Shown: positions 30,931-61,069 of the stretch, in pieces
Layout of the letters: each line of letters begins with the position of its first letter
Numbering within the stretch: position 1 is the stretch's first letter
Assembly: GCA_947034885.2 (NCBI GenBank)
Contig: OX344756.2
Span: 10,970,098 to 11,034,097, forward strand
Direction: 5' to 3'
Origin: Thuidium tamariscinum
Lineage: Eukaryota; Streptophyta; Bryopsida; Hypnales; Thuidiaceae
Length of the DNA: 64,000 nt
The notes under the pieces: model-generated
Told to the model about the DNA's origin: nothing
Databases searched by the model: none
Seen by the model: only the letters and a program-made list of their open reading frames with translations
Program-made: the position numbers and the translations under genes

Positions 30931-31499
30931 ATCCATAGTCCAGAAATAAATCGGCCGTCAGCCGATATAGTCGAATGCATAGTTTTGTGTGCCACAAGCA
31001 ATGAACCAAAATGGCTGCAAGCACTAAAGAAACCAAAGTATCACAACACCTGGCCCATAAAAGAGTTGAGAGATAATAGTTTATGAACATTTATTGTTAA
31101 ATAAACACGTGTGTTGTGTCCTAATTTGTGACAAAGTATCGGTTGGCGCTTGATACTGGCAGCCGATTCCTAACATCACACTAGAGCACCTAGACCTCTG
31201 AAAGTGTCCTGAGTGCGTAAAGTGCTATAGCATTCATTTGTAAGATGAAGCGCGACAAATTGTCGACCTTAAACCCTAAACCCTAGTCCATCCGACCCAA
31301 GTAATAAAATTGCGCATATCAGCAGTCAGCTGATATCCCCCCCCGAAAACTCCAGAGAGCAGGTCCTATAGTGAAGAGGCAATGGACTCGATAGGACTGG
31401 CTCTGAAATGAGTTGTTCCAATTTCTGAAAAAGGGTCTTGTAGCCTCCCCGATTCCACTGCCGTTGTATCGGTTGGCGGCCGACACAATGTTTGCTGAA

Positions 31500-32216
31500 T
31501 CACCAGAATATCCCCTGCCAATTCGGCTTTCCATACTTGATAGATTGTGCAACCTCATAGTGCAGTTGTCCCGGTCTCTGTGCGCCTTTCATGTATTCTG
31601 AGACTGATTGATATTGGTGCATTGGATAAATGAATGGAATAATATCATTTGAAATGTTTGGAATAACTCTACTAGTGTTTGGGAAATTGAGATCTCCCTT
31701 GAATGGTCTCGGAATATAGCACGCCGTGTCCGGCGTCCTCCTGAGCGCCAGCGGGCACACATCGACGATGAGCACTTGGTCCGTGAAGCATGTAATCCTG
31801 GATGGTCTCTTAGTATGTAGTATTGAGAGCATTTTGTAGCACCACGGGAACTTGAGGCTATCTACACAGTACTCTCTGCCATAAACGAATGCTATGTTGT
31901 CTCTGATTTGTTTTGGAAGCAAGTGCGCAAGCAGAGGCCTAAGCTGAAGTATTGGCAACCTTGACCAAATTCCTACGTGAAACTTTTGAAACAATGTGCT
32001 GAACATATGAACTAGCCCAGGCCTTTTAATGACGTTTCTGTGTGGGTCTGCCTTGTCCACCTTGATATTCGGGTCGAGATAACAAAGTAGTCCCGTGACT
32101 CCTAGAACCACACATTTCTTGAAGGACTGTGTATGGCCCACGTTGGACTCCTGAAGAGAAGATAAGTTAGTGGACACATGACTCCACAACAAAAGCATCC
32201 GATGAAAGAAGAGCAT
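31500..32216 (-). CDS. FCP1/NIF-type HAD-phosphatase-like protein C, catalytically degenerate
   Basis: The conserved core starts SFKKCVVLGVTGLLCYLD, where the HAD motif DxDxT would lie. It continues VIKRPGLVHMFSTLFQKF and HVGIWSRLPILQLRPLLAHL, then IAFVYGREYC, and QVLIVDVCPLALRRTPDTAC followed by YIPRPFKGD. Order and spacing match the FCP1/NLI-interacting-factor fold (RPGL..FL, VWS, then the motif III IDD). The two catalytic Asp of motif I are replaced (GVTG), so phosphatase activity is unlikely. The frame may open at ATG 32216, or an upstream small exon may splice to the good acceptor at 32151 (exon 32150-31500); I could not decide. A palindrome copy lies just upstream at 32224. It is a distant paralogue of the gene at 32613-33640. 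Confidence 0.6.
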   Translation of the reverse strand: MLFFHRMLLLWSHVSTNLSSLQESNVGHTQSFKKCVVLGVTGLLCYLDPNIKVDKADPHRNVIKRPGLVHMFSTLFQKFHVGIWSRLPILQLRPLLAHLLPKQIRDNIAFVYGREYCVDSLKFPWCYKMLSILHTKRPSRITCFTDQVLIVDVCPLALRRTPDTACYIPRPFKGDLNFPNTSRVIPNISNDIIPFIYPMHQYQSVSEYMKGAQRPGQLHYEVAQSIKYGKPNWQGIFW

Positions 32217-32612
32217 GCATTAGGTATCGGCCGGCAGCCGATACTAGAGCCTGACCCCATACAACAGGAAGCATTAATTGTTGAGAGAGACATGTGCTAG
32301 AAAGACAGTAGAGATGAGTGAGTGCCTGCCCCTACATTATTGCAATCAGTCGATTTCCAAGTCCAAGACCTAATGATGCAACTCTCAAAGGAAACATTGG
32401 AATGCTTTGAGAGTGAGCCATGCGCACGCTTTAGAAGAACTCTGACTATAATGTCTTGATTACAAAAGAATGTTTAATCCATACAGAAGAAAAAAATGTC
32501 CCTAGAAGATTTTGTCTATCCGTGCTGTATCTACAGAGAGTATGTACAATGTACACAAGAGTGTGTCGGCTGGCAGCCGATACACTACGCCTCCTCCATC
32601 CATTTGCGTGGG

Positions 32613-33640
32613 CTATGCCATTCCCAAGGCCTTTAGCTCCTCCTGTGAATATGGCACCTCGAATCCCTTCTGATAGTGCGGTGTCACATTCACGTACTGA
32701 TTATGCATCGGGGTTCCCGGCATACATCGTGCAAGCCCAACGGACGAGTTCCTCTCACAGAACTGTGCGACCGTGAGTCCCGAAGACAAGAGCCGTTCAA
32801 TGAACGGGATCAGTGTCGCCTGGAGAAATGGCAGTTTCCCTGCCTTGAGTGATTTCTCCGAGTACATGGTGACGGGGGGCGGATGAATCGCATTATAGGG
32901 CAGATTCAAGACGTTCCTATATGGCTCCGAGTCCACGATCAATGAGTTGTTGATCGTGGCGCCCATATCGTACAGGGAGGATGCTCCGAGAATTCTTGCG
33001 AGACGCTTCAGAAAAATTGGTCGCGATGCATTCTGAGGGTCCCGATAAGTACTCTCGTCGCAGAACTCCTGTCCAAAGGCCAGGTAATCCTCTCCGATCT
33101 TGGGCGCCTTCCATCTAAGGCTATGGAGGCGCTGCTCGAGAGTGTTCTTGGTTAAGATTGACCAGTAGACAATCACAATGTCTTGACCCTTACAAAAGAG
33201 GATGAACTCCCGGAGACCTGGTCTCTCTCTGACTGTCGACCTCTGAGTCATACTCTTCCCTTTGACAATGAGTGGCTCATAGAAAAGTAGAGTTCCCTGA
33301 ACTTCAAGGAAAAGAAACAACTTCGGAGTCGCTACCTGAGCAGGGCCAGCACTGTCGGGAGTCTGTGGTCTGTCTTGTGTTTCTGGCTGGACATTCTCAT
33401 TCCCAGCTTCAGATAGGGTGTCGGAGGAATTGTCAGACTTGTGATAGTCATCATCTGCATTGCCACACGAAATACATAGAACATGAGATGGTATGAACTT
33501 AGTTAGATGACAAAACATTTGTGCACTATATCGGCTGGCAGCCGACAAAACATTTTTGCACTGTATTGGCTGGCAGCCGACATAGTTGAGAGGAAGTCTA
33601 GTCTGCCCCCAAAACGGCTCCTACTGACATGTCTACGCAT
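32613..33640 (-). CDS. FCP1/NIF-type HAD-phosphatase-like protein B, catalytically altered
   Basis: Two exons fit in phase: a tiny first exon 33640-33625 (ATG, 16 nt) and 33454-32613, giving 858 nt or 285 codons. The intron holds two palindrome copies (33529 and 33564). After an acidic, Ser-rich start come PKLFLFLEVQGTLLFYEP at the HAD motif I position, RERPGLREFILFCKGQDIVI with VYWSILTKNTLEQRL, and NSLIVDSEPYRNVLNLPYNA with IHPPP. These are the FCP1-type blocks RPGL..FL, (Y/V)WS and IDDSP..V..N. The motif I Asp residues are Glu and Gln, so it is probably a pseudo-phosphatase. The C-terminal PYSQEELKALGMA is followed by TAG. The first exon is inferred only from phase and splice sites. Confidence 0.66.
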
Positions 33641-33717
33641 GAGTCTGAGCCAAGCAGTTCTACTTATGAAGGAACTATGTATGATACTCCACAAACATCG
33701 CGGAGCATGTCTACTGC

Positions 33718-35677
33718 CTACGAACCTCCAGTTTGCGTCCTCTTCTGAGATCGGACGGGAGACATCTCTTCGTTGGGGAAGTCCTGCGTCCGCGCCGCCG
33801 CGCCAGCGTCCTTGTCGTTTGATCTTTTCCGCTTGAAGAAGACCCGAGTTGAGCGGCGCGAGTCCGCCGACTCCGACTCCTTTTCTAGCGGTGCCCCCTT
33901 GCTCCTTCCCCGTCTTGGTTCCGGCGGAGAAGTGTCCATGAGTGTCGGCTGGCTACCGACACGAATGTCGGCCATAGTCGCCAGTCGCCCAAGTGCAGTG
34001 ACTCCCACTTGAGGCTCCGTCGCCGCGACGACCACCTGAGGCAGAGGTAGCCTACTTATCTCCTCCGACGGTGGCTCGGTGCGCAGATCCACGACCATTG
34101 CGTGCGAGGAGTTTCTGTGTGGGAGCAGCATGGGGTGGTCCAGATGTTTAGTCGGGGGTGGATTGAGCGAAGGCCTCGGAGACGAAGGACGTGGTTGCCG
34201 TTCCCTTCGAATGAGTGGTGCTTCCGAGGAGTTCTCTGAGTCTGAGTCAGTATCAACCGTCACAAGTGGTTGTTGCTCCTGAGACTGACCTTGTGGCCGC
34301 TGAGTTTGAGCTGCGGCCCCCAGATCCCGAGGCAGAACGAGGGTGGACAACGGCCGCGGTTGCTGAGGAGATTGCGCCCGTGCCGGTTGCCCCTCGTGGT
34401 CTGTCACCGCTAGCGTCACCTGAGAAGGTCCCAGGGCATCCGAGGAGAGGAAGTTCATTCCCCTGACACGTTCCTTGGCCTTCTCCAATCCCTCCTCCTC
34501 CCGAACGAACTCCATGACAGCCCGTCCATTCCTCTGCAAAGCCATGGAGTGCAAGTCAGCCATCAATTGTATCGGCTGCCAGCCGACAGAAAGTGACTTC
34601 CTGAGAACAATACAAGTATGAGGATGGGATAAGAAAACGTACCAGAGCGATCTCCGTGATGTTACCGCCTCCCCAAATGTTGATGACGGTGGCATCCTTG
34701 GCTTTGAGGGTCGGTAGCATGAGTTTCTCGAGGAGCCCATGGCCGACCCCGCACATCCCGCCATTCCAGTCGACCTCCCCCTCGACGTCGAAATTGAACA
34801 AGTCGAGCGCCTTGTGGACCCCAGTGAAGCGCTTGAAGACCGGGAAAACACTGAGCCTGTCCTCGGGCTTCGGGAAGGTCAAGGAGAGAGTGACCAGAGG
34901 CCTGGACTCAATCTCTGCCTTCAGAAAGCCTCCTCGGGGAGATGGCTGGTAGTACACCGCATGGTAGTACCAGTCGGTCGAGGATGAGTTCGCGGCCGAG
35001 GCGACTGAATCCCTGAACCGCGAGTTCCCGATGAGGAGCATTGGCAGGGGGATGTAAGGGTCTCTGTCTTCATCAGCTTCCCCGTCGGAAATTTCAGCTG
35101 CCAACGATAGATCGAGCAGCTCGTTCCTGTTCACCCCTAGAGCTTCCCCCATTTCTGTATACCCGAAAACGACGATGAATTTCTTGTCCTCGGGTTCCAG
35201 CTTCATCGTCCCCTTCGATTGGCGAACGAAGTCCACCACGTCTGCAATACTGTCCCCAACATGGCATTCGTATTGCAGTTCGCTTGACTTGCCTACCGTG
35301 GTAGGCACTGGGACTTTGACGTAGCTTGCCAAAGTCGTGAAGAAGACCCCCGGCGCCTTGCCATCCGTGGACTTGTCCGTGGTTGGATTCATGGGGTTGA
35401 CTCGGCCCTTCAACCAGTTGCTTGCGTCCGTGAACTTCATCATGTCCTTCCAGACATTCCGGACTACGGCCGCTGAGTACCCCTCCTTTTCAGCCAGCTC
35501 CTTCCAAACCTCATCCGTATATGGGATCCAGCCTGCATCCTTGCAAGGAAGAGGGTACTTCTTCCTGGTCCACATGATCTCGTTCATGACGATCCTGTCG
35601 AGCTTCTTGTCCTTGCACCAATCGAAGAGAGTGATCTTCCCTGAGGACTTGGCCTTGGCGGTGTTTTTGATGCTGAC
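33718..35677 (-). CDS. ParB-like/DNA-methylase-like protein, 3' part (split by the nested hAT)
   Basis: Continuation of the gene whose 5' part is at 52769-54950. The exon from 35677 to 34643 continues the frame across the 8-bp duplication (VALRVSI | KNTAKAKSSGK). It encodes about 345 residues, including FIVVFGYTEMGEALGVNRNE, WYYHAVYYQPSPRGGF and, at its end, DATVINIWGGGNITEIAL. An intron (34642-34534, with a palindrome at 34570) leads to RNGRAVMEFVREEEGLEKAK. Together VINIWGGGN..EIAL.RNGRAVMEF resembles motif I of amino-type DNA methyltransferases (DxFxGxG..L.A...GR..IGIE), as in bacterial ParB-methylase fusions, but with altered residues. The last exon (34533-33718) adds a Ser/Pro/Arg-rich tail with KRKRSN-type basic stretches. 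A palindrome copy is translated here as VGSQPT (33943-33962). Methylase assignment is tentative. Confidence 0.6.
35670..35677. repeat. Left target-site duplication of the hAT
   Basis: ATGCTGAC directly before CAGGGTTG; identical to 52769-52776. Confidence 0.93.
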
Positions 35678-35699
35678 CAGGGTTGTCTATCCTGACGTG

Positions 35700-36430
35700 A
35701 CGTGGGCTTTTCCCGTCGGGATGTCATGACGCGGCAGGACGCGTCAGAGGCCGTCCCAAATGCTGACGGCGTCGTCGACAGCGCGGATGAAGTCCGTCGA
35801 CAGCGCGCAGACGGCCTGTCGGCCGCCTCGACGACTGGCCGTCGCGTGGACGGACAGAGCGTCCGCGGCTTTAGGGTTTAGGCGCGACGGCCAGGCCGTC
35901 GCCTCGACAGTTTTCTGTTCAGCGGACGGTCATGGCGTCCAGAGTCCGTCCACACAGCGGGGACGGCCAAAGCGTCCGCGGCTTGTGCACTTCGACGGGA
36001 CGGCCAGGCCGTCGCCTCGATAGTTTTTCGTTCAGCGGACGGTCACGGCGTCCAGAGTCCGTCCACGCAGCGGGGACGGCCAGAGCATCCGCGGCTTGTG
36101 CACTTCGACGGGACGGCCAGGCCGTCGCCTCGACAGTTTTCTGTTCAGCGGACGGTCACGGCGTCCAGAGTCCGTCCACGCAGCGGGGATGGCCAGAGCG
36201 TCCGCGGCTTGTGCACTTCGACGGGACGGCCAGGCCGTCGCCTTGACAGTTTTCCGTTCAGCGGACGGTCACGGCGTCCAGAGTCCGTCCACGCTGCGGG
36301 GACGGCCAGGCCGTCGTCTGGACAGCGGGACGTCCGCTAGACGGCCAGACCGTCTGCGGGGACGGCCACGACGTCCCGTCCGCGGCTGTCCACAGTGCGC
36401 CAACGGCCAGGCCGTCGACTGGACGACTGC
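35700..36430. repeat. Left subterminal GC-rich array with 113-bp tandem repeat
   Basis: Unit markers GTTCAGCGGACGGTCA start at 35917, 36030, 36143 and 36256, an exact 113-bp period for four copies. Units contain GGGACGGCCAGGCCGTCGCC and GCGTCCGCGGCTTGTGCACT. The flanks have more scattered GGCCGTC/GACGGCC words. It lies between the left end and the transposase gene, and likely serves as subterminal binding sites and promoter. Open frames across it are repeat artefacts. Confidence 0.88.
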
Positions 36431-36666
36431 TGCCAGGCCTTCACAGTATATAGCACAAGCCGTGTATTTGAAGGTCACTTTTCCTTGCTGATCTCTGCTC
36501 TTATGACCTGGTTGGCACACAGCCATTGCACTAGAGTGAAGTCCAAGAAGAGTGTGTGGGAGGAACACTTGTTGTGAAAGCAGTAAGTGTTATTTCCACA
36601 TCACATCCAAACTGAATACTAACCTGTTTTGTTTGTGCAGTTTCAAGTGAAGAACCAGTGGGAGCA

Positions 36667-39600
36667 ATGGGAGGGGGGAGGACACAATGGGAACCCTGGT
36701 ACAGGCTACAAGAGGATGGGAAAGTGGAATGCAAGTTCTGCAAAACGAAGATTAGTTACCGCAAGGATCGCTTGCTTTTCCACTTGGGTTATAGACGAAA
36801 TGACACCCTCCCCGGAGTGAGAATGTGCAACAAGGCCAGTGCAGCAGTGAAGGCTATGTTTTTCAATTGTGGGGGGAATGTTCCTACGGTCTCCGAAGAC
36901 GAAGAGGAACATGATGTGGAAGTGACATCACCGTCATCGAATCCAACGAGGGTGGTACATGATCAAGAATTACCCAATGCTTCAATCTCAATTAGTGGAG
37001 GGGGAGGAAATACTTTGGGCCAAAATTCTCAAGTTCGATCATCAGAGGCGCCTGTCCCTTCTTCGACCCATAGTCGACCGCTGAGGCAATTATCCGTACA
37101 AGAAGGGATGGACACATCCAAAAAGCAAGTACTAGACAAGAAGTGGGCAAAGTTTTTCTACGAAGCAAATATCCCATTCAATGTGGTGAGACACCCCGCT
37201 TTTGTGGATGCCGTGAAATCAACCTCCGAGTCCAGAGTTCTTTACAAACCTCCACCTTACAATGCCATACGTACGAAGCTCATGACATCAACAAAGGAGG
37301 AAGTGGCTGCACTGGTAGCGGAGAAGACAAAGGGGCCTATCCACAAGTACGGTGTCACTATATGTTCTGACGGATGGGACAATGTCAGCCATCGGCCATT
37401 GATCAATGTAATGTTGTCGTGCACGAGTGGAGAAGTATTTTTGGGATCGGTGGACACTACAGGCGAAAGCAAAGACGCTGTTTATGTGGCTAATCGCATG
37501 ATCGATTATATTGACGCGGTGGGGGGACAGAATGTGGTGCAAGTTTGTACGGACAATGCGCCAAACATGCGTTTGGCTGGTACTCAAATTACTCGCGAAT
37601 TCCCTCACCTATATTTCCAAGGTTGTTCCGCGCATGCACTTGACCTTCTACTTGAAGATTGGGGCAAGCAACTTTGGGTGGTCAAAATGGTGAAGAAAGC
37701 AAAATCAATCGTGAAATTCATTCGCACGCATCACATGCCACTCGCCATTTTCCGACGACATTCTCCTAACCTCATGTTGAAGAATCCCATTGAGACACGT
37801 TTTGCGACCATGTTCCTCATGATCGAGCGTTTGGCCGAGGTCAAGGAAGCCGTGGAATCTACAGTCCATGATCCGCAGTGGAACGAATATGTGAGGTCCT
37901 CGAACGCTGCAATACACAATAAGGTAGAAAAGGTTCGACGTAGGGTTCGAAAGGACGAGTTCTGGAGGAGGTGTCTCAACTTTGTGCATATGGTAGAGCC
38001 TGTGTTGGTGGCTCTTCGAGAGTTTGATGGAAAACATCCGGTCATGGGCAAAGCATGGATCGTGATGAAGAAGCTAGAAAAGCATGTTTTGGCTTTGAGG
38101 AATCGACCATTTTCATTGGAGGCAAATTATGCGGACCGTGCTGAATACGCGTTTTACGAACGATGGGATTTGATGAAGACTGATTTGCACTACGCAGCTG
38201 CCCTGCTCAATCCATTCCTCCTTGATGAAATTATACTAATAGACGATAACGAGGCAAAGGAGGCCATTCTTAGAGTACTACGCAAATTGGCAGTTGGAGG
38301 GTTGGGATATGCAGCCGCTTTGTTTGAGTACCAATCCTTTCGAGACCGCCGAGGCATGTTCGCTGGACTTCCCGATGTGAATACTTTGAATTTGGAGCCG
38401 CATGAATGGTGGGATCTTCTCGGAGCCGCTGCTCATACGCTTGCACCTATTGCAAGAAGGATCCTCGCACAAGTATGTTCCGCATCATCATGCGAACGCA
38501 ATTGGAGCATGTATTCATTTGTCCACAGCAAGTCTCGCAACAGATTGACATCTGAGCGCGCGGAGGAATTGGTTTACATTTATACCAATTCGAGGACTCT
38601 CAGGGAAAGGGGTGCGGCGGATGCCGCACGATGGTACACTGAGAACATGTTGTCCGAAGATTCCATGACAACCGAATCAGATGGCTTGGATCGTGGTTCG
38701 GTTATGTCAGACGCTAACAACGATGACTCAGACGACAGTTCCAATGGCGATGATGATCCACCATTTCGGCCTTTGGGTGAAAGGCAAGAAAGGGGTCCCC
38801 TAATTGACGAGTCCGTATTTGACTTTGATGGCGCGGATAATGATGGAAATGACCACGGGGGAGATGAGGATGGAAATGACAACGGGGGAAATGATGGCAG
38901 TCCGTCATGGATGCCACGTACATCGATTGCGGGGTCAAGTGGTGGAAATCAAAACGAAGGGGTTGAAGCCCCACCTTCGCCGATTATAGGGCCGATTGAA
39001 GAAGAAATGCGTACCCAGAGACATGAACATGTCGTTGTGGTAGAAAGACAAGGCGAAGATGAGGTCGTTGCCACAGATCCCCGAGTGGCGCGGAACACTC
39101 GTAGCCACAGATCCCCCATTGGTGTCGAGATAGACTTTCGCACATTGCTTCGAGACACGATCGGCGTGCGACCACAAGCGCCTAGCTTGGATGATCCACC
39201 CGTCCAAATTTCAGCACGGCCTTCATCTTCTAGAGTCCGCCCCAACCAAGAAACTCCATCAGTCGGTACACGATTGGCCGATCTCTTCCCAACTCTAAAT
39301 ATGACCGAGCGAAGGAATGCACCTCCATCCTCAGAACAACCCGTTGCACCGCCTACACGCACTACTAATCGACGCCCGCGGCCACGTGAAGAAAGCCCTA
39401 CCAATGAACGAGTGAGTAGAAGAACACGTAGAAGGCTAAGAAGGGAAGAAGCGGCGAGTATACCATTTCTCCGCGAAGGTCTTCTCCCTGGACCGACGGG
39501 GCCCAGTGTGGATACCGCTGGAGATGGAGTAGGAGGGCGAACAATCCGCAGATTGGCTTCTATAGTAGGTGAAGGCTCAGACAGCCCTGACAACTCACCA

Positions 39601-39801
39601 AGCGAAGTCGGTAGGGCAACGTCCAATCATGATGATGAATCCATGGGTCCTAGTATAGGTGAAGATGGTGAAGTTCCGGGAGATAGTGATTATAGAGGGA
39701 CTTGTAGAGGTCCTCCACCTGCACCTCAAGACAATCAAGCAACCACGCGAGAGGTTGCTGCAAGGAGCATGGCTCCTAATCGTACACGTGCAAGACGTTG
39801 A
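36667..39801 (+). CDS. hAT transposase with BED zinc finger and acidic C-terminal tail
   Basis: A single open frame of 1044 codons from ATG 36667; an acceptor TTTGTGCAG at 36640 suggests an upstream non-coding or short coding exon. A BED-type finger is near residues 15-45 (WYRLQEDGKVECKFCKTKIS then HLGY). DUF659-like catalytic blocks are TICSDGWDNVSHRPLINVML (Asp near 233) and VVQVCTDNAPNMRLAG (Asp near 295). The hAT dimerisation region is at about 594-645, with IARRILAQVCSASSCERNWS and MYSFVHSKSRNRLTSERAEE (Cys-Glu-Arg-x-Trp-Ser carries the third acidic residue). About 400 further residues form an Asp/Asn- and Ser-rich, then Arg-rich, low-complexity tail that is unusual for the family. No stop or frameshift, so it may be active. 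Confidence 0.93.
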   Translation: MGGGRTQWEPWYRLQEDGKVECKFCKTKISYRKDRLLFHLGYRRNDTLPGVRMCNKASAAVKAMFFNCGGNVPTVSEDEEEHDVEVTSPSSNPTRVVHDQELPNASISISGGGGNTLGQNSQVRSSEAPVPSSTHSRPLRQLSVQEGMDTSKKQVLDKKWAKFFYEANIPFNVVRHPAFVDAVKSTSESRVLYKPPPYNAIRTKLMTSTKEEVAALVAEKTKGPIHKYGVTICSDGWDNVSHRPLINVMLSCTSGEVFLGSVDTTGESKDAVYVANRMIDYIDAVGGQNVVQVCTDNAPNMRLAGTQITREFPHLYFQGCSAHALDLLLEDWGKQLWVVKMVKKAKSIVKFIRTHHMPLAIFRRHSPNLMLKNPIETRFATMFLMIERLAEVKEAVESTVHDPQWNEYVRSSNAAIHNKVEKVRRRVRKDEFWRRCLNFVHMVEPVLVALREFDGKHPVMGKAWIVMKKLEKHVLALRNRPFSLEANYADRAEYAFYERWDLMKTDLHYAAALLNPFLLDEIILIDDNEAKEAILRVLRKLAVGGLGYAAALFEYQSFRDRRGMFAGLPDVNTLNLEPHEWWDLLGAAAHTLAPIARRILAQVCSASSCERNWSMYSFVHSKSRNRLTSERAEELVYIYTNSRTLRERGAADAARWYTENMLSEDSMTTESDGLDRGSVMSDANNDDSDDSSNGDDDPPFRPLGERQERGPLIDESVFDFDGADNDGNDHGGDEDGNDNGGNDGSPSWMPRTSIAGSSGGNQNEGVEAPPSPIIGPIEEEMRTQRHEHVVVVERQGEDEVVATDPRVARNTRSHRSPIGVEIDFRTLLRDTIGVRPQAPSLDDPPVQISARPSSSRVRPNQETPSVGTRLADLFPTLNMTERRNAPPSSEQPVAPPTRTTNRRPRPREESPTNERVSRRTRRRLRREEAASIPFLREGLLPGPTGPSVDTAGDGVGGRTIRRLASIVGEGSDSPDNSPSEVGRATSNHDDESMGPSIGEDGEVPGDSDYRGTCRGPPPAPQDNQATTREVAARSMAPNRTRARR

Positions 39802-41321
39802 GAGCATCTAGGGAAAAAAATGTCTCCATGTCATCTTATGTAATATTGTGTAAGGCTGAATACCTTGCATGTGAAATTCGGCATTAATTATAAATACTAC
39901 ACATGCTTCCTGTGCTCATGTAGGGCGCATGGGTAGAAATTTTTTATCTTCACATGTCACAAATTCTACAACGCAATAACGGATCTATTTATGGATATTT
40001 GTCCCAAGAAATGGAAATATTTGCTTTGTCGTTTGCCATGTGTTCTATACTCTTAAATTTCGATTCATTCTTCGAAGCTGGTTACCTACATGCTTGGATA
40101 TTTTGAGATCATTATGAATTTTGCCATGTACAAGAAAACAAATGTAATCTGGAATATGGAGAAAATGATTGAAAGTACTGAATTAACCCCTAAAGGACCA
40201 AGAGTCCCCTCGGGGAACTTTAAGAATTAGGGCAAGTACTTGTGACTTCAATTTTTAATGAATTTTATTGAAATTTTCACATAAGATAAAAAAACTGATT
40301 AGCTCCGTGGAAATATTCATTTTTTTTCAATTGGTGACCGGGAGCAAAAGTTATGCCATCATAAACATTATTTTTATGTTGCCGGGTAGAAAAAAAATCT
40401 ACAAAAACTTCAAAATTAAAAAAATAATTTTTTTTTCTTATAGATTATATTTTTGTCTACAAGTAAAGCTTTGATTCATTCCATTTGGATTAGTAATGTG
40501 AAAGTTATGAACAATCTTGTTTTTCGGGCAATCTAAGCATCTTCTTGAAAAAATAACTTCTAGGATTCATTTGTGAATGCAATTTCCACAATTTTAAAAA
40601 AAAAATTGTTGGACAAGGTTGATTTTGTTTTCTAGAACAATCTCACCATTGGGATTATTGTGTTTCAATTCCATCTATGAGATATTTGCAATTTAGTTTT
40701 TCTTTCAATCTTGGACCTACATCTACTTGACAATTTTTTAAAGAATGACAAAAAGTCTTTATTTTGTGAATTTTTTTTCCTAAGCTCTTAGCTCAATTTC
40801 TCAATAAAAAAATTTTAATTCAAGGTCTGTAGTGCAAAAAGATTACATAAATGGAGGACAAAGTCATTTGAAGTTGCAAACTAGTGTTTAAGAAAACTTT
40901 GTTTTCCAACTTTGAATGCTCATATCTTCCTATCTATACGGTCAAACTTCATGAAATTTTCACCACATCATCTTAGTTAAGTAAAGTTCAAGATCCTATG
41001 GTTAGATTCTAAAAATTTAGTTTTTTTGTTTTTCATGGATGAATGGAACAAAAATGGCAGTTTTGAGTGGTTTTGGGTTGAAAAACGGCCGTGGTCCTTT
41101 AGGGGTTAACATGGCATTCAGTCCAAAATTTACGAAGGGACAGAACTACTCACAAATCCACTCACCGGAATCATACTCGAATGGAACAAAAAGATTTACA
41201 TATATTTATTTCAAAAAGGAGTTAGTACAAAATTCAGTGACGCAAAGTTCGTGGACTATACTGTGGTAAAAGCAAGTACTAAGGTACGTCTACGATTACA
41301 TTGCCACTAAAATACTATTCT
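39802..41321. other. AT-rich spacer between convergent transposase and kinase genes
   Basis: Probably holds the 3' ends of both genes and a nested small element (40187-41105). No gene seen. Confidence 0.5.
40187..41105. mobile_element. piggyBac-like MITE (919 bp) with TTAA duplications, nested in the hAT
   Basis: TTAA is followed by CCCCTAAAGGACCA at the left (TTAA 40183-40186), and the exact inverse TGGTCCTTTAGGGG is followed by TTAA at the right (41106-41109). TTAA target sites and CCC-starting ends are typical of piggyBac. The interior is AT-rich without coding sequence. It is a third level of nesting: it sits in the hAT, which sits in the outer element. Confidence 0.7.
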
Positions 41322-42983: not shown

Positions 42984-43189
42984 TCTGAAAAAAAATATGC
43001 GATGGTAAAACCAAGGAATTAGGGTTCAGTACTCACAAATGTGAAAACTATCCCCCCTTCCTCAGCCGAGCCTCCTCGCAAGCACCCGCGCTCCCAAGCA
43101 AGGATTGCAACCAATCCAGGGCAAGAGAGCACCGTTAGAGCAGGAGAGACTCGTGCAGAGTGGGGGACCTGGCCCACCTTATATAGTCG

Positions 43190-43630
43190 TTGGCGAGCCG
43201 TCGCATGGACGGCCGATCCGTCCAAGGAACTCGAAAGCCGTCGAGGGGTGTCGGGAACTCCGAGACCGTCGAGGGGACGCGCTGAAGCCGTCGAGGGGAA
43301 TGTCGAGGACGATGAGGCCGTCGACGGGACGCACCCATCCGTCCCGGGAATTTCGAAGCCGTCGTAGGGACCGTCGAGGAACTGCGAGACCGTCGAGGGG
43401 ACGCGCTCGCCGTCCTCAGAATTGGGAAGCCGTCGAGGGGAATGTCGAGGACGATGAGGCCGTCGACGGGACGCACCCATCCGTCCCGGGAATTTCGAAG
43501 CCGTCCAGGAAACCGTCGAGGAACTGCGAGACCGTCGACAGGACGCACAAGCTGTCCTGGGAATTCGGGGGTCCGTCGTGGAACGAGGCCGTCCACGCGA
43601 CCCCACAGGGCGTCCCGGGAATTCTGAACC
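43190..43630. repeat. CCGTCGA-rich array upstream of the kinase gene
   Basis: Dense GGCCGTCGA(G/C)GGGA words. A longer block (GAGGCCGTCGACGGGACGCA with CCCATCCGTCCCGGGAATTT) occurs at 43314 and 43456, a period of 142 bp. It lies 200-650 bp upstream of the kinase start codon. Open frames across it on both strands are repeat artefacts. Confidence 0.82.
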
Positions 43631-50526: not shown

Positions 50527-50879
50527 ATACCTTCTGGTGATGAGTTAGGCCATTAGACGGATGTATAGTATATTAGTATTGTAAATAGTATTTGGCTATG
50601 ACGACCATTTACGAGCGTTTGTTGCTCATGTTGCAAAAGTACATTTTTTGGGCAATGAAGCATTTTCATTTTTCTCGTACAACTGTATTGTTTGTTAAAC
50701 ACTTAAACTGAAAACTTAACCATGAACAAATGAAAAGAATACTCAATACGTTTGCTTGAAATGTATGTGCAACAAGTTCATTTAAATCCAATGCCATACT
50801 TTCACTTAAAGTAGATTTTGTAAGTTCACTTTTAAAAATTTCCAAAATTCTATTTTTTACATATGCCACAAGTATATAT

Positions 50880-52110: not shown

Positions 52111-52274
52111 ACCTTTTTTTTAAATACAAAATATATATTATATTTAGACTATGGAAGGCCTAAAATACAAAACCATGGGAAATTATTTTTTGAGAGATGG
52201 TTAAACCTCATAGACTAATGAGAAAATTTTGATTGCGAATATGAACTCAGACTTTTAAGTCTTACAAATAAAGA

Positions 52275-52768
52275 GTTCCAGTCCACGGAGCCCAGGCCGT
52301 CCATCCTGACCGTCGACGGCACGGCCAGGCCGTCCATCGAACCCAGGCCGTCCAACCTTCCTCTCAATCCAAGCCGTCCTTCCCAAGCGTAGACCGTACC
52401 CAGACCGTCGATCTGGAGGCGTCCGTCCAGGCCGTCCACTGGACGTCCTGTCCATCGGGGCCGTCCATACCCCGCGAGCGGGGCCGTCCCCTAAAACCGT
52501 CCACCGGATCCGGACCGTCCGCAGAACCCAGAGTGTCCATCCAAGCCGTCCAGTCAGCCAGGACCGTCCATCGGAACTGTCCACCGAGCACATCCTTCCA
52601 GGCCGTCCACGAAGGTCGTCCGTGAGGGCGTCCACGACCGCTGTCATGATTTTTCATCCTCTGTCGCGGATTCTGTCGTGAATTTCATCCTGACGGACGC
52701 TCGGCTCCCCGTCATGTCAGCGGACGGACATCCTGACGGACGGACGTGACGCGACGGAAGCAACCCTG
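52275..52768. repeat. Right subterminal CCGTCCA-rich array of the hAT
   Basis: More than twenty GGCCGTCCA/GACCGTCCA words lie between 52275 and 52635. Then short GACGGACG words run to the terminal CAACCCTG. It mirrors the left array (35700-36430) in base words though not in unit length. Confidence 0.85.
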
Positions 52769-52776
52769 ATGCTGAC
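52769..52776. repeat. Right target-site duplication of the hAT
   Basis: ATGCTGAC directly after CAACCCTG; identical to 35670-35677. Confidence 0.93.
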
Positions 52777-54950
52777 GCGAAGTGCCACAATCTCCCGTCC
52801 CAACTCGTAGAGATCTGAATCACGAAGCCCCAGCGTTGGCGTGAGATCCGTCTTGGTGATGTGCGTGAGCGGCTTTCGGTTGACGAGGAGATTGGGCACC
52901 GTTCCATCATCGCCAATGAGTTCGCCGTTCTCCCACGCATCGAAGACCTCCGTCCACAGCTCCCAGGTGCCCTCCTTGATGAAGATGAGTGGCAACTTGG
53001 AGGACACCTTCTCCTCCACGAAGTGCGCCATCACCTTCAGCTTCGCAGCCTGAGTTCAACCACAATGCTTAGAACAGAGCACAAAGGTATCGGCTGGCCG
53101 CCGATACATAACGTAATGAGCAAATGCAAATAGAAAGAAAGGATGCGAGGGTAGTACCTCGAATGCTGCTGTCGGCTTGCCTCCTCCACGGTGCGGCTCT
53201 GGGCATCCCGCCTTCACCCACGCCGCTCTTCCCATCTCTGCGCAGGATCTGAAGTTCTCCTTTGCCACCTTCTCAGCGATGTTGAGATTGAGGGCATTGG
53301 AGACTCTGACGAGTGTGTCCGGGTCTCTGCTGAACACCGGAATCACCTCGAACTCCAGGAGGTCCGTTTTGGCTTCAGAGCCGTCGGGATACTGCTCGGC
53401 CAGTTCTCGGCAGGCCGTCACCGTGTGTTGCCCTCCAATGATGTACCAGTGGACATCCGGCGCCTTCCACCACGGCATTGAGACGCCGTTGACAACAGTG
53501 AGTTCCTCCTGCCCGGGACACTTGTCCATCACTGCGTCCAGCCCTTTGTCCTTGGGCGTTGGAGCCCGCTTCAGTGGAACCCCATGAATTTCCGGCTTCT
53601 TCCTGATGGACCCATATCCCTTATACATGGTCTTCACCTGAAATGATAGAAGGGCCAAAACATTAATGACCAGTTACACATGTCGGCTGCCAGCCGATAC
53701 AAGAAATCAAATGACTTTGATCAACGAACGATGTTAGTGAACATCCAATTACCTGTCCAAGCCGATCCTTCGCAATCTTTCGGTACTTCAGCTCGTCCGG
53801 TGCAATGTGCAATTTGCTCGAGTGAATGACCCCCGGAAGACGCTGCTTCTTGTAAGGAAATGCGTGCAGGAGCCCTGTCTCCAGCGCCTGGTAAATGGCG
53901 TTCACCTCGTTCTCTTTGGTCTTCGTGGTGAGGTGATTTCCACGGCGGAGTGCTTCGTCCAATGTGAGCTTGAGCGGCTTCGACGGGTCATCCTTGCCCT
54001 TTCCTCTCCGCTTTGGTTTGGTCGGGGACGCTGGTTCCTCAAGATCGGCTTCAGCGACCTCAGCCACTGTCGCCGCCACCAGCTTCCTCTCCACTGGTAC
54101 CTTCTTCTTCCCCTTCTCCAGCTCCCGAGCGACGAACGCATTGTGCTCATCGCGCTCCTGCTTCAGGCACTCCCACCCCTGGATGAGCTCCTCTGCAGAC
54201 GACGGTGTGTTGCCGCCAAATGTCATGCCCATGGACATGGACTTCTGTCCACAGACCTCCTCCGTGCACTTGTTTACCGGCAACTCCACGGCGAAGTAGT
54301 CAGGGACTCCGACCATGCTTGCTATTGGCATCAAGCATATCATGACATGCACGCACTCGCCAGCAGCCCTGACGGACAACACACTTCCCTTGCCAGGGGT
54401 CATGTTCTCCTTCAACTTGAAGGAGCATGCGATGTCCACTTTTTTGTCGGGTGCCTGCCTCCAGCACAGGCCCCATTCCTGGATGGCCTCGATCCCTCGC
54501 CATGTTGCTCGTGGTGGAATCCCGTCACCCAAAATCCCAGAGTTCGGGATTTGCTCACCCAGCATTCGGGCCAGGAGAGTCGGTTTCCTACAAAAAAATA
54601 CATTTCAATTCTCAGTAAGTTGTCACTATGTAACTCCACTTTCTGCATCTAGTGTATCGGCTGGCAGCCGATACAGCCACAGTCCCTTAACCCTAGCATC
54701 CCAAGTCATTTACAGATCATCGTAAGACTACTGTCCCAGATTTCTATCGGCTGCCAGCCGACATCGCATGAGCTCAGGAGATACCTGAGTGCTCCCATGT
54801 CTGTCGGCTGCCAGCCGATACAGCAACCCACAGGTGCCCCAGACTCTCAATGGCTGCACTCAAAATAATCGACAAATGATAATGTATCGGTTGGCAGCCG
54901 ATACATATAATGAAAAAGTACCTCTCTGTTGCCAAACCGGAGGATGCCAT
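52769..54950 (-). CDS. ParB-like (GGQH motif) protein, 5' part (split by the nested hAT)
   Basis: Exons 54950-54922 (ATG; MASSGLATE), 54587-53753, 53637-53158 and 53049 down to the insertion at 52769. Together with the 3' part the coding length is 3468 nt (1156 codons including stop), in phase throughout. Exon 3 holds APDVHWYIIGGQHTVTACRE with FEVIPVFSRDPDTLVRVSNA and LNLNIAEK. This resembles the ParB/sulfiredoxin-fold GGQHR..A motif (about residues 356-360) followed by the variable helices. Exon 2 has a basic linker (PKRRGKGKDDPSKPLKLTL). Introns 1-3 carry palindrome copies at 54653, 54745, 54802, 54884, 53681 and 53087. ParB-type domains bind DNA or act as CTP switches or nucleases; the role here is unknown. 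The short first exon is inferred from phase. Confidence 0.66.
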
Positions 54951-56098
54951 CGCCGAAGGACTGACGCTTGTCGGCTGCTCAGAAGGACTTGTCGGCTGCT
55001 GAAGAAAACGCCGGCCGCGCACTCCTTCTTTGTCGGCTGCCCAGATACTCTTGTCGGCTGCTCCTCTGCTCTGTGTCTGGGTGTCAGTTGCAAGCTGGAA
55101 GGCAAGAGGGAGAGGGAGGGAGAGAGGGAGAGCGAGAGAGGGAGAGAGCGAGAGTGAGAGCAGGAGCGCAAATGGAAAATGAGAGAAAATGAAAGTGGTC
55201 TGGGGGGTATACCCTCGGCTGCCAGCCGAGGGGCGCAATCATGACAAACCGAGTCCGTTCATCCTAGGATTTCATCCATCGCCGCTTTTCATCCAAGGAT
55301 TTCATCCATCGCCCGGATTCCATCCGCTACCGTGTACTCCACATCCAGCGAGGTACATGCAGGTGACGAACACTCATTGCTCAGCTGCGTACGTTTCCAC
55401 CCACGATCTCTTGATGCACGGACTTGTCACTCTTGCAATCACCACAACTTCATCCTCTTTCAGATTCAAATTTCAGGCGCCAAGTTCAGTCACAAGCATG
55501 CTCACCTAGGATTTGATCTTGGAGGACTTCATTTTCCATTTTCATTTCCCACACACACACACTCAGAGCGTCCAGGAACCGTGAGGGAATTGCAGTGGCT
55601 TGTTGTTTAGGAAGGATGCAACGTTAGAGAGGGAATTTAGTAGACCTCAGCCCAGCGCAGAGCTTAGGTATTCAGTAGTCCTCGGGTTCAGGAAGCGCTG
55701 AGGGACAGATGTTATTTGGCGTTCAAGCTTACGTAGGAAATGCAGTAGGATTTCAACTGCTGGGAGACAGTTTTGAAGTGCAGGAGGATTTCAATTGCAG
55801 TAGGATTTCAATTGCATTTTCGAGAATTAGTTGCCTGTCATAGGTTCTTGATTTCCTATTTGGTTGCGTTTGTGCTTCCATTTCCTGATTCAGCCTAGTC
55901 CGAGCATCTGTGGACAGTGCATAGATCATAGGATTTGAAAAATCTAGCTTCGTGCGTGATCCCCGGAGTTCCAGTTGTACGGTTTTGCCCCTGTGCTAGA
56001 CCGTACGGACAGTGGTATCGGCTGCCAGCCGATAGGGTCATCACGGGTTTTACGGAAGCAGAAATTCCCAGTCTGGGTTCTCACCCCGATTTCGAATC
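54951..56098. promoter_or_regulatory. Divergent intergenic region between the two main outer-element genes
   Basis: About 1.15 kb separates the start codons of the ParB-like gene (-) and the transposase-like gene (+), so it probably acts as a bidirectional promoter. It holds four half-sites TGTCGGCTGC (54968-55063), a GAGAGGGAGA-rich purine tract (55105-55165), a CTCGGCTGCCAGCCGAG copy (55214-55230), short direct repeats of GGATTTCATCCATCGCC (55268-55315) and CAGTAGGATTTCAATTGC-like (55740-55820), and a full palindrome at 56016. Confidence 0.55.
54968..55063 (+). repeat. Cluster of four half-palindromes TGTCGGCTGC
   Basis: CTTGTCGGCTGCT or a close variant occurs at about 54968, 54988, 55030 and 55050. 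Each is one arm of the 19-bp palindrome seen across the outer element, here without the second arm. The cluster sits next to the presumed start of the ParB-like gene. Confidence 0.7.
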
Positions 56099-59000
56099 AT
56101 GAGTGGCTCTGATGAATGGACCTCGGGTGCCAGTCCTATTGAGGCGTTCACAAGAAATGGCGGGTCCGGAAGACTGAAACTGCAGAAGGGAGTTGTTGTG
56201 GCTCTCACACTGGAAGGATTATACTACGCTGGAAGGGCGGTCGTAGAAAGGGTGGTCTGCCGCGATCCATACCTCGTGCGCGTTCATGTCCTAGATGTTC
56301 CAAACAACCTCGATATGCCTCTTCCGTTTCCGGAGGGAGACATGGTTTTCCTCAGACACTGCCCGGGAAGCTCAATCGTGTGGGAGGCAGGCAACGTTTA
56401 TCCGCACGCAGACGCGGAATGGTCTTCTGCTGCTGCTGTCGGCCGGCAGCCGACACAAGTGCTCACTGATGAAAAACCCATACAGCAATTTCTGTCACTC
56501 ACTATCAATATGGATGTCTCACTTCTCCAGACTCTGGGCGACACTCTGTTCTATGCTGGTGTAGGGACAATTATAGAGTGCTCCCCGAAGGGGTACTGGG
56601 GAGGCTTCCGCATTCCACACAGCTTCTTCCTCGTTGTGAAGCTCCTACACGTCGTCGATGACTTCAAGAATCACACTGCCTATTGCGAGATTCCTGATTT
56701 CATCTCACTCAAACGTTGTGTAGGATACAAAATACTCTGGAGTGGATACAAGGTCAGACCAATCCAGACATCTGTCCCCTTGGCCAACATTGTCAGCTGC
56801 CAGCCGACAGGAGCACCTGCGACCAATTTCATGCAGCCTCAGGTCGATGGGAACTGTGAGAGTGGTGGAAGTTCGAACAATGTGCAGATAGAACTCGGTG
56901 ATCCGGGACCACAGCGGCTACTTCCTACTGCATCAGACGAAGACGAGCGAGATGATAGACTCTATTCGTCAGACGAGGACAGCCGCGGGTCTGCACACGA
57001 CCAGCGCAATGTTCATGGTTACAGCACCTCTGGCACTGCCGCGTCCGACGCAAGTGTTGCTGACAACATAGATCATTCGGATGCGTTCAAAGATGGTACT
57101 CAGAGGGGTGACAATGCCGATCCGGTTGGAGTGCAAGATGGACTTCCAATCCCAGATAGACCGCTCTGGAGAAATCAATACTGTCAACTTCTCAATGACG
57201 ACTTCTCGGTACTGGGAAGAGCCATGATACAAGTTTGCCTACCAGATGAGGCTTGCGATGATGGCGTCCTGGGCGACACGGATGTTGGGGTCATGTTCGT
57301 ATCGGACAGTCACGAACTGCAAATGACAACCATGCGCTGGAAGCTCACACACACAAGATTGGAGGGGGGAAGGCTACTATCAGAAATTGTCACGCTTTGC
57401 TCACAGGCTGCTCTGTTGAAGGAGGCAGACGATGATGGAATGCAGGGGGTACCGAGGAATCCATACCGCTCTGTGCGCAGAAGGGTCATTCCCAAGGATC
57501 AAGAGAGCCACTCCAGGCTACAAATCAAGACCTCGGAGGCAGAGGTACGTAAGGTCAGCTCACAGAAGTGCTGTAAGCTCAGATGCTACTAGACCTTTCC
57601 CTGGGAGGACACCAGGTCTATACGACGAAAGTTCTTCGCTTGCACATTCGAGAGTAGGAGGGAGGTAGCGTATGCGGTGCAGAGTCAACTTCATGCAGGG
57701 AGTATTCCAGGAAAAAAATTCATCACTCTTGTTAATAGAGACGTCTGCGAGAACGCATGGTATATCATTCACGGGGTATCCAGGTCAGCCTATCACGTTT
57801 ACAAGGCTGCGGCCGCCGGAGGATCCGTCAACGGGTCGCATGGAAATGCGGGGGCTCGACGGCCACGGCCACAAACAATACAAGCTCAAGCAACACTCAA
57901 AACGATCATCGATGAGAATGCAGACAAGATGCCGAATGAGTTTAGAATGGTTGGAAATAAACGCGTCGACAATCTCAAGGTCCTACCCTCTGCAATGAAT
58001 TGGGATCACATACGCGAACAAGTCAATTATGTAAGTCCAATATCTGCCTCCTCGTCTACAGTATAAATGTCACTCTGTCGGCTGCCAGCCGATACATTCA
58101 AGGCTAGACCTAGAATCGAGCAGTCATAGATCTTTCCTTTCTGTAGGTCGGCACTCGCAGTTCTGTCGGCTGCCAGCCAATACAACTCTATCGTCTTACA
58201 TGGATACTCATCCATGTAGTCATGTTCTTCAGGTCAATGGAATATGCAATATGGAGCCGGTATCCCAGTCTGCTATCAGCCGACTTCGAAATGCTCATTT
58301 CAAAAACGTAGAGGTCAAGGCAGTAGGGAGCAATTTCTCAAAATGCACAGAGTGTGACTTCCTCGTAGAGTTCATTGCAAAGTATCCCAGAGGTTGTGAT
58401 GAGTGGCAGGCACTCGTCGACGACAGAGAGAGACATCTCAATTACCAGCGCGCTTGTAGAAATGTATACAGCGGATGGACCGCGCAGTCGGTGCAGAATC
58501 CATCAGAGTTCCTCTGCATTATTCATGACAAAATGGACACCACAAAGACTGCCATTCCCAGGATGCAGCGCATCACAAAGGCCACCGCAGGACTAGGACA
58601 AATTCCAATCTCATGTACTGGAATGCTGACACATGGACATGGAGATGGCGCATACGCGCATTACTCAACATCGCTCTGGCCGGGGGATTCAAATTTCACT
58701 ATTTCATCCATCTGCAGGGTACTCAGGGCCCTAGAACTACCTCCTGTAAGGGAATCAAAGATACTCTTCTCCACTCCACCGCTAAACAGCTTCTTCGAGG
58801 CTCTACTGCATGGAAAATCCAGATGCAGCTCGTCAATCCCGCAGTCATCGGACAAGGTCACAGACGCACCAACGCCAGGGCGACCTCAGGTACCACTGCC
58901 CAAAAAACTCTTCTTGCAACTCGACAATTCGGCCAAGGACAACAAGAACAGATTCCTCATGGCTTTCTGCTCACTGCTCACTGCCAGGCGCATATTCAAG

Positions 59001-60248
59001 GAAGTCTCAGTCGGATTCCTCATTGTCGGACATACGCACGAGGACATTGACGCGCACTTCAGTTACCTCTCGAAACTCATCAAGAGGAAGAATACTTACG
59101 TTCTCGCGGATCTCATGAAGGTGTTCATGGACTCACAGAAAACGGTAGCCTTCATTCCGGAGTTCGTGCAAGAGGTGGCGGACTTCAAATCATACTTCAC
59201 AGGATTCCATCATGAGGGGGTCAACAAAATCATAGGGCTAGGAGATAAACACCTATTCAAGTTCTACGTCGTAGAGGATGGGGTCGATCGGGGATGGCCG
59301 GTCATGAGGTACAAGGTCAGGGCCACGGATTCTTCATGGCTCCCTCCTGGACCACCCGTCAAAATGTGGACAGCGGATGAAAATGGGAAACCCAACATTC
59401 CTCAGGGGGAACCTCGACCTGTGCCTTTCAAGGCACTCTGGGGGAATGTAGACATTAATCCAAGAAAAAGAAACGCGGAAAAGGAAGTCGCAAGGGCCAC
59501 AGAGTGCAATGAGAAACAGACATTCATTAAAAACGGAATCGCCAAATTCATTGAATTCTGGAAATCGGGAATGGCCAGAGACAGACGATACGCACAGGAA
59601 ATGACAGGCTGTGTGGCTTATTGGGAAAGAATTCAAGCAGAGATCAATTCACCGCTGCCACAAACTCCTGCAGTGCTTCAAGAAGGATTATGGCCGCTCT
59701 CGGACTGGACAAGGGATCACGCATCCACATCGTTAGACAAGGGGGCGCTCGAAAATTATTTAACGGACACCACTCCGGAGGACGAAGGGGACCCCACTCC
59801 ATACTGCGGACCTGCCAAGGACAGGCCAAGATTGAGATTCAATCCATTCAGGGATGTCCTCCTCGGAGACTTTGTGCTCTGTCGACCATGTCACAACAAC
59901 CACCTGCCTGTCTGGCTGGGACGGGTACTCGAATGTGTAGACATGACTCCGGGGCCAACCTATGGAAACTTTAAAATCGAGTGGTGGACTCCCATGAAAG
60001 CAAAAAGGGAGTCCAAAGCGCTTATCGCAAGGGAGTGCTGGACTCGAAGATGGCACAAGGAACTCTGTCTTCCGCAGATGGTACATGTCAACATTGTCTT
60101 GTACTCGCACAGAATGCCCTCGCATGCAAAGAAAGGACCTCCCACGTCTCATGTCATCCCGGAGGCATCCGTTGCTGCTGCTATTGCGAATCTAGAGGCC
60201 GCGGGTGCAACTCTCGACAGAGATGCAGACGATGCCGGAGACGATTAA
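56099..60248 (+). CDS. DUF7869-type transposase-like protein (RNase H-fold), about 1299 residues
   Basis: Three exons, 56099-57544, 57593-58030 and 58233-60248, all phase 0, total 3900 nt. The C-terminal half has NFSKCTECD (zinc-like Cys pair), FLCIIHDKMDTTKTAIPRM, then KLFLQLDNSAKDNKNRFLMA, GFLIVGHTHEDIDAHFSYLS and KLIKRKNTYVLADLM. The HDKMD, QLDN.KDNKN and GHTHEDID blocks are those of the DUF7869 family of plants and oomycetes, with three acidic positions (near residues 727-730, 859 and 899-901) as expected for a DDE-like catalytic core. Exon 2 has ENAWYIIHGVSRSAYHVYKA, the usual upstream block. The N-terminal 480 residues contain repeated YYAGRAVVERVVC...LPFPEG-like units that faintly resemble plant Tnp1/En/Spm-like domains. 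Two palindromes are translated in exon 1, as VGRQPT and VSCQPT. The 48-nt first intron is short and should be regarded as approximate. It is probably the mobilising enzyme of the outer element. Confidence 0.75.
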
Positions 60249-61069
60249 GGATACATCGACTCGGACTTATCGGCTGCCAGCCGATACACCATTTGTGCTC
60301 TCCAGTTATGTCAACAACACATTGCAACACGGATTCGTCTTCTCTGTGCAGGTGTCGGCTGCCAGCCGATACGACGGGCTTGGCTACATCACGGTCGCGT
60401 GGTTCGTCAGCAGAATGTTCACTTTAAGATCATTACGTGCAGGTCCCCAATGTTTACTCATTTTAGGATGTGCATTCTTATCTTCTTCGGTGGGGCTTTA
60501 TGTTATTTTATGGAAAGCCTTTATATTTCATAGGATGGCACTACATGTCTTATGACTAGGCAATTCACATTTTACGTATTTGTCGGCTGGCTGCCGACAG
60601 GGCTAAGCGGAGGACGTTACTCTCTCAGGCGATACTTTGTCCTCTTCGGTTGTTAGATCCTTGCATTTAGCACTTGCTGCGAGTTTATGTACTTTCTTTA
60701 CATATTTATTTGAATCTCCTATGGGGACCATTTTGCAACTATTTTATCTTCAGTGCACAAACGGTGCAGGAAATTCTCTACATGTCATGCTCGTTGTCCT
60801 GTTTTACTCTTCTGGCGCACTGTACTTTGCTCTCTTATCGGCTGCCAGCCTATACATGTCATTGGCCACGGGATGGGTGCACGGTTATAGGCACCGCTTC
60901 TGATACTCCACTAAAAAAGCTCCAACAGTCAACAATCCTCTCCTTTCTTATGCAACTGCTCGTTCTCAACAAGGTGTGGGTGGGCTGCCGATACTTTTCC
61001 ATCATTTCAAGCGTCTTTTCCACGTTCTCAGGTGGCTTGCGACTATAAATTTGTCCATAATTCATGCAA
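60249..61069. other. Right end region of the outer element
   Basis: Holds four palindrome copies (60268, 60353, 60581, 60836) and a half-site near 60984, then the right terminus. Hydrophobic open frames (for example 60637-60903) have no recognisable identity and are not called genes. Confidence 0.5.

Follow-up and report, generated by a model that had tools for sequence, protein, structure and literature searches.

The genome of the moss Thuidium tamariscinum contains a family of transposons with repeated, apparently private palindromes. We studied one member in a 64,000-nucleotide stretch of DNA ("the window," C8:10970098-11034097 on contig OX344756.2). It is interrupted by a second transposon, a hAT, so we call it the outer element. 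Besides a transposase gene with a DUF7869 domain, it carries a gene that we call GQH (Table 1).

A repeated palindrome in the outer element

A preliminary description of this DNA reported about 25 copies of a 19-bp near-palindrome in the 13 kb of the outer element. They were said to lie in both arms, mostly in introns and gaps, with no copy in the hAT or the outside flanks. This description holds up well. Comparing both strands of the window with TATCGGCTGCCAGCCGATA gave 3 exact sites, 15 sites with at most 1 mismatch, 22 with at most 3, and 27 with at most 5. All of the sites with up to 5 mismatches fall in 30949-34588 or 53088-60993. At this threshold, there are no sites within the nested hAT (35678-52768) or in the window's flanks beyond the outer element. 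"Near-palindrome" is correct as to the symmetry, but the motif is better put as TATCGGCTG-S-CAGCCGATA (9 + 1 + 9), whose symmetry is complete except at the centre base. Across the 22 sites, positions 3, 4, 6, 7, 9, 11, 14, 15, 17, and 19 are invariant, and the second pair of the palindrome (A/G, T/C) is variable. In 100 dinucleotide-preserving shuffles, TATCGGCTGSCAGCCGATA at up to 3 mismatches had a mean of 0.01 sites and never more than 1, versus 22 in the window. As was first suggested, this is too many for chance, and selected binding sites are the best explanation.

Most sites are noncoding. (Our exon map is inferred, without transcripts, and these counts depend on it.) In the window, this applies to 24 of 27. 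In e1, a copy of the element that lacks the hAT, it is again 24 of 27 (at up to 4 mismatches), with 4174 of 13159 bp (32%) being noncoding (binomial P ~1e-9). There is one site in each of the three GQH introns (~110 bp each), with four more in the GQH 5' region and two in the DUF7869 intron. (For the GQH 5' region, canonical splice ends were absent from the boundaries tried.) The three coding sites (33943, 56437, and 56791) share one reading frame, which gives V-G/S-x-Q-P-T.

A scan of the genome (363 Mb) found the exact 19-mer 130 times and a reversed-pattern control 0 times. We have locations for 100 of the 130. Of these, 93 have a DUF7869 match from family 1, the family of the outer element, at a distance of 13 kb or less (this is proximity, not alignment). 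The other 7 are at five loci, in element fragments that align to the outer element at 88-94% identity. Frequent copies in host DNA unrelated to the element, which would have counted against the first interpretation, were not seen among the 100. When a collection of viral sequences was scanned for TRTCGGCTGSCAGCCGAYA, 2 stretches had one site each, which is the chance level by a rough estimate.

The outer element is a DNA transposon, with terminal inverted repeats (TIRs), a 4-bp target site duplication (TSD), and a DUF7869 transposase with a predicted RNase H-like fold. We set its ends by comparison to e1 (L043+L044, on C5), to which it is 98.7-99.1% identical. The TSD of e1 is AAAT on either side, and the TSD is 4 bp in both of the two copies with both ends read. 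The TIRs are 27 bp, imperfect, and free of the palindrome. The right terminus (...ATAGGTT), followed by varying flanks, was seen in 27 of 30 loci (L011-L040, which include the window itself as L011 and e1 as L013). The 4-bp TSD and DUF7869 rule out the outer element being a hAT; only the nested element is one. Compared with e1, the copy in the window is missing 65 bp that include one palindrome, a pattern expected from recombination between repeats. Tandem repetition in family 1 is limited to a 35-bp pair and, in e1, a 65-bp two-site repeat.

DUF7869 is the sole Pfam family above the cut-off in the transposase's open reading frame (ORF). The structural model of exon 2 has a predicted local distance difference test score (pLDDT) of 84.8, and from a structure comparison, the protein models as an RNase H-like transposase. 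Other bryophytes have proteins with this domain (PF25273): we found named homologs in Ceratodon purpureus and Physcomitrium patens (68-72% identity over ~60% of the query) and in Riccia. Our literature search found no paper naming DUF7869 and no described motif system for it. In copy e1, the DUF7869 gene and the GQH gene are each interrupted by stops.

The nested hAT has DUF659 and hAT dimerisation domains. It also holds kinase-like and RING-like ORFs and a perfect 35-bp inverted repeat (47258-47292 and 47466-47500). NIF/FCP-type phosphatase genes are carried by two element lineages; the second example is at L050:7212-7817 (Pfam E 1.2e-15).

Table 1. Features of the outer element and its insertion in the window.
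Feature	Position	Strand	Details
Outer TIR transposon	30904..61096	.	ends AACTAAC...ATAGGTT; 13,094 bp, not counting the nested hAT with its TSD
Left TSD	30900..30903	.	AACC, 4 bp
Right TSD	61097..61100	.	AACC, 4 bp
Left TIR	30904..30930	+	AACTAACATTTAACTAATTATGGACAA
Right TIR, inverted	61070..61096	-	AACCTATATTTAACTAATTATGGACAA
DUF7869 gene exon 1	56099..58030	+	in-frame stop at 57590-57592 in window copy
DUF7869 gene exon 2	58233..60248	+	predicted RNase H-like and C-terminal BAH/SH3-like domains; Pfam PF25273 E 9.8e-41
GQH gene exon 1	53755..54565	-	inferred splicing
GQH gene exon 2	53158..53637	-	YIIGGQHT motif; inferred splicing
GQH gene exon 3, right of hAT	52769..53049	-	inferred splicing
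GQH gene exon 3, left of hAT	34643..35677	-	inferred splicing
GQH gene exon 4	33718..34533	-	inferred splicing
NIF/FCP-type phosphatase-like gene	31500..32216	-	Pfam NIF E 3.5e-7
Second phosphatase-like ORF	32613..33548	-	likeness by eye; below Pfam cut-off
Nested hAT	35678..52768	.	17,091 bp; CAGGGTTG...CAACCCTG; TSD ATGCTGAC; interrupts GQH gene
Palindrome site	30949..30967	.	3 mismatches
Weak palindrome site	31137..31155	.	5 mismatches
Palindrome site	31317..31335	.	4 mismatches
Palindrome site	31467..31485	.	3 mismatches
Palindrome site	32225..32243	.	1 mismatch
Palindrome site	32564..32582	.	1 mismatch
Palindrome site	33529..33547	.	1 mismatch
Palindrome site	33564..33582	.	2 mismatches
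Coding palindrome site, GQH exon 4	33943..33961	.	4 mismatches
Palindrome site, GQH intron 3	34570..34588	.	1 mismatch
Palindrome site, GQH intron 2	53088..53106	.	1 mismatch
Palindrome site, GQH intron 1	53681..53699	.	1 mismatch
Palindrome site, GQH 5' region (probable intron)	54655..54673	.	exact
Palindrome site, GQH 5' region	54745..54763	.	1 mismatch
Palindrome site, GQH 5' region	54802..54820	.	1 mismatch
Palindrome site, GQH 5' region	54885..54903	.	1 mismatch
Palindrome site between divergent genes	55213..55231	.	4 mismatches; symmetric CCTCGG/CCGAGG ends
Palindrome site, upstream of DUF7869 gene	56016..56034	.	exact
Coding palindrome site, DUF7869 exon 1	56437..56455	.	3 mismatches
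Coding palindrome site, DUF7869 exon 1	56791..56809	.	3 mismatches
Palindrome site, DUF7869 intron	58076..58094	.	1 mismatch
Palindrome site, DUF7869 intron	58164..58182	.	2 mismatches
Palindrome site, 3' of DUF7869 gene	60268..60286	.	exact
Palindrome site	60353..60371	.	1 mismatch
Palindrome site	60581..60599	.	3 mismatches
Palindrome site	60836..60854	.	1 mismatch
Weak palindrome site	60975..60993	.	5 mismatches

Palindromes of related DUF7869 lineages

A genome search with the DUF7869 protein yielded 752 candidates; 65 of them were scored, for a total of 68 matches. We grouped these into lineages by identity (the grouping is our own): 53 matches, in about 40 places, are 87-100% identical (family 1), 5 are 61-79% identical, and 10 are 49-53% identical (the ~50% lineage). 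In another search, we scored 150 of 853 DUF7869 candidates. By a hand count, 47 of these 150 scored matches are on C11 (17.5 of the 363 Mb), which bears L056, L045, and L046; C11 may be a sex chromosome.

The preliminary description held that loss of the motif from related elements would argue against its importance. The 19-mer is indeed gone from e50, a copy from the ~50% lineage with no site within 4 mismatches, and in L056 (of a ~35% lineage), a palindrome finder recovered a family unlike the 19-mer. But these elements have palindromes of their own, of similar layout and in equivalent places. This speaks for a recognition system that co-evolves and not against a function.

In the ~50% lineage, the palindrome is YATCSGGAGATCTCCSGATR. 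Its form in e50 is (C/T)ATCGGGAGATCTCCCGAT(G/A), with ATCCGG variants, and it was found again in L047, L048, and L050. The exact core ATCGGGAGATCTCCCGAT occurs 73 times in the genome (reversed-pattern control, 0). Among 50 listed copies, 31 have a listed DUF7869 match from the ~50% lineage no more than 25 kb away, and none has a family-1 match within 14 kb. (We sought the left end of this lineage in e50 and did not find it.) The ~35% lineage has TATCTTCG-N3-CGAAGATA. Six such sites, with at most 1 mismatch outside the centre, lie within 950 bp upstream of the DUF7869 ORF in L056. There are 280 TATCTTCGNNNCGAAGATA palindromes genome-wide (reversed-pattern control, 0); of 50 listed, 41 have a scored DUF7869 match no more than 15 kb away. 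Finally, the 61-79% group (L045 and L046/L049) has decayed palindromes, TATCGGCTR-S-YAGCCGATA. Those of L045 resemble TGTCGGYTGSCAGCCRATA and those of L046 resemble TATYGGCTASTAGCCRATA, with CG changed to TG or CA in many. The palindromes in L045 and L046 were called from mismatch scans; the automatic finder gave 2-3 members because the sites have decayed.

Across these lineages, the 19-20-bp dyad and the outer ATC/GAT are retained and the core is replaced. The outer bases are TATC...GATA in family 1, the 61-79% group, and the ~35% lineage, and YATC...GATR in the ~50% lineage. The placement of the sites recurs as well. The intron ahead of the main DUF7869 exon has two sites in family 1, two in e50, and two each in L047 and L048; at the thresholds used, the intron in the same position has eight sites in L045 and five in L046. 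Tandem arrays of palindromes are present in L045, L047, L048, and L050. Upstream of DUF7869, 48-bp units form an array of 14 in L048 and of 4 in L047. In B50, another copy from the ~50% lineage, two GQH ORFs are separated by DNA with six sites, most of them spaced at 76 bp.

The GQH gene and its protein

The GQH gene is oriented divergently from the DUF7869 gene. We saw it in all four lineages that have palindromes, at one or more loci in each. A GQH[TS] loop is conserved across all four. In the ~35% lineage, GQH was recognised by its position and by comparing profiles with hhalign (probability 93.8, E 1.7e-7). Copy e50 retains just an N-terminal piece of the gene.

Between family 1 and the ~50% lineage, GQH is 22-31% identical over pieces of at least 136 amino acids (copy B50), and DUF7869 is 46% identical over 670 amino acids (e50) or 58% over 296 amino acids (B50). 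Between family 1 and the 61-79% group, GQH is 39% identical over 368 amino acids (42-68% in shorter pieces), versus 62% over 601 amino acids for DUF7869. Judging from these identities, the GQH protein is evolving faster than the transposase.

When the spliced GQH protein of family 1 was used as a query, none of the 7992 candidates scored reached E <= 1e-3. By eye, the C-terminal part of GQH resembles motif I of DNA methyltransferases, but Pfam, PDB, and protein searches did not support this, and we did not use it.

What binds the palindromes?

We propose that the palindromes are co-evolving binding sites for a protein that the element encodes, that this protein is GQH, and that it has an anti-silencing role. 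Working from sequence, we give this proposal about an even chance. The palindromes are specific to the element, symmetric as dyads, and mostly noncoding; they are replaced from lineage to lineage and spread in tandem. Together, these properties fit the sites of a fast-evolving protein encoded by the element. The binder is probably the GQH protein rather than the transposase. GQH would bind the dyad as a dimer. If GQH loaded onto the numerous intron sites and those of the promoter region that the two genes share, it would hold the element's chromatin open or keep its genes on. The privacy of the palindrome would spare all other DNA from this action, and the palindrome and its binding protein would change jointly between element lineages.

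The anti-silencing effect is inferred by analogy to VANDAL/VANC; in sequence, anti-silencing sites and the silencing signals raised in the preliminary description would look alike. VANDALs are Mutator-like elements, and to our knowledge, VANDAL/VANC is the one well-worked plant example of transposons escaping silencing without general derepression. According to two papers, the VANDAL motif lies in the noncoding DNA of one transposon family, is rare at such density elsewhere, and is replaced by other motifs in related families (PMC5735166, PMC10398659), and the targets of VANC grow through tandem repeats whose unit number varies (PMC5735166). The moss system resembles VANDAL21/Hiun of Arabidopsis (PMC5735166, PMC10398659): its motif is in the introns and upstream noncoding DNA of one transposon family and, judging from the 100 located copies, rare elsewhere, its lineages have different motifs (or none, in L057), and there is tandem amplification. 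The VANDAL motif has 9 bases and is directional, unlike the 19-20-bp palindrome in moss. Also, the candidate binder here, GQH, has no known relatives of described function. The moss element is not itself a VANDAL, as it has no Mutator-type transposase (VANA), with DUF7869 being the sole Pfam family over the cut-off. Our literature search found nothing on anti-silencing in moss, on palindromic anti-silencing motifs, on bryophyte DDE superfamilies, or on the TnpA protein of Spm in relation to subterminal sites and demethylation.

Several observations weigh against our proposal. Some listed copies were not traced to an element: 19 of 50 listed ATCGGGAGATCTCCCGAT copies are away from any listed DUF7869 match from the ~50% lineage, and 9 of 50 listed TATCTTCGNNNCGAAGATA palindromes are away from any scored DUF7869 match. 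Nor are palindromes a universal feature of DUF7869 lineages, for none is repeated in the 9 kb of a fifth lineage, L057. (The DUF7869 protein of L057 is 26% identical over 389 columns and is the sole ORF of at least 150 amino acids in that 9 kb.) In the ~35% lineage, GQH was seen in L058, which was placed in this lineage by its palindromes, but not in the ~4 kb read upstream in L056. (L045 was also read for 4 kb upstream.) The GQH protein, a putative DNA binder, has no Pfam or PDB match, and its fold model had a pLDDT of 34.9 and was discarded. Constraint on the sites between young copies was not demonstrated: CpG decay was somewhat lower within sites (18/323) than at other noncoding CpGs (107/1131), but with P = 0.11 (permutation over dinucleotides), and non-CpG divergence was lower at sites with P ~0.09 (189 of 2000 random sets).

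The transposase is another candidate for the binder. DUF7869 is equally present in every palindrome-bearing lineage and is the one protein that is certain in all four, and many transposases bind repeated subterminal motifs. In hAT and CACTA elements, these transposase-binding repeats are, like the palindromes, numerous, short, and element-specific. The nested hAT may be a local example, with GGACGG/CCGTCC-type clusters at its ends (36 motifs in the first kb and 22 in the last two bins, along with 12 and 18 in two interior kb). The transposase might use the palindromes for transpososome assembly, for recognising the element, or for repressing its own promoter, perhaps via an N-terminal region that looks helix-turn-helix-like by eye. 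But hAT and CACTA repeats cluster near the ends, whereas the palindromes span all 13 kb and prefer introns over ends (0 to 4 per kb in e1). Also, the TIRs lack the palindrome, and DUF7869 is conserved beyond what the turnover of the motif would suggest. We consider it rather unlikely that the transposase is the binder. Host transcription factors, such as GATA-type factors, might instead drive the element's genes, which would suit the outer bases that the lineages share. This seems improbable, as three different full-length palindromes, each tied to one lineage, are not expected from a host factor, and none of the 100 listed family-1 copies was shown to lie outside the element.

The remaining explanations concern RNA, partition, or mobility. 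Hairpins in introns or untranslated regions might affect splicing, export, or the production of small RNAs: all of the inferred introns have palindromes, which could fold as 9-bp stems, and by a hand count, 8 of the 11 one-sided changes in the second pair yield a tolerated G-U on the sense strand. With A-C mismatches at the other three (32564, 53681, and 54802), this bias falls short of significance, and sites also occur between the divergent genes and close to the ends of the element. Hairpins are a quite improbable explanation. The preliminary description had suggested a ParB-like protein with parS-like sites, which might maintain an extrachromosomal element. The moss element does share palindromic sites with ParB/parS, the GQH motif is reminiscent by eye of the ParB/Srx loop, and there were weak single matches to PHROG ParB (E 0.062, and E 0.019 for 1 of 36 aligned family members). 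No significant match in sequence or structure backs this up, so a ParB-like protein is not established. Furthermore, none of the ten window ORFs in the Pfam scan is ParA-like, and sites dispersed among introns are unlike clustered parS. We consider a partition system very doubtful. Even less probable is that the palindromes are mobile and insert into the element, akin to the homing mini-repeat that was raised at the outset. They are short, dispersed, and in both orientations, and three are in coding sequence. But their flanks are unshared, no listed copy was shown to lie outside elements, and positions are kept between copies.

If our proposal that GQH binds the palindromes and counters silencing is correct, then this would be a second, unrelated case in bryophytes, and private anti-silencing codes would evolve repeatedly. 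More tentatively, mosses may have hundreds of DUF7869 transposons, many with an independently evolved, VANC-like system of GQH and private palindromes that protects or activates no lineage but its own; we think this broader picture is possible but has less than an even chance. A family with multiple lineages, several motif alphabets, and a candidate binder would make the co-evolution of motif and protein directly testable. The series of palindromes, with a shared outer ATC/GAT and a changing core, would be a readable record of the co-evolution of protein and DNA, and the family would be a source of sequence-specific DNA-binding proteins of a new kind.

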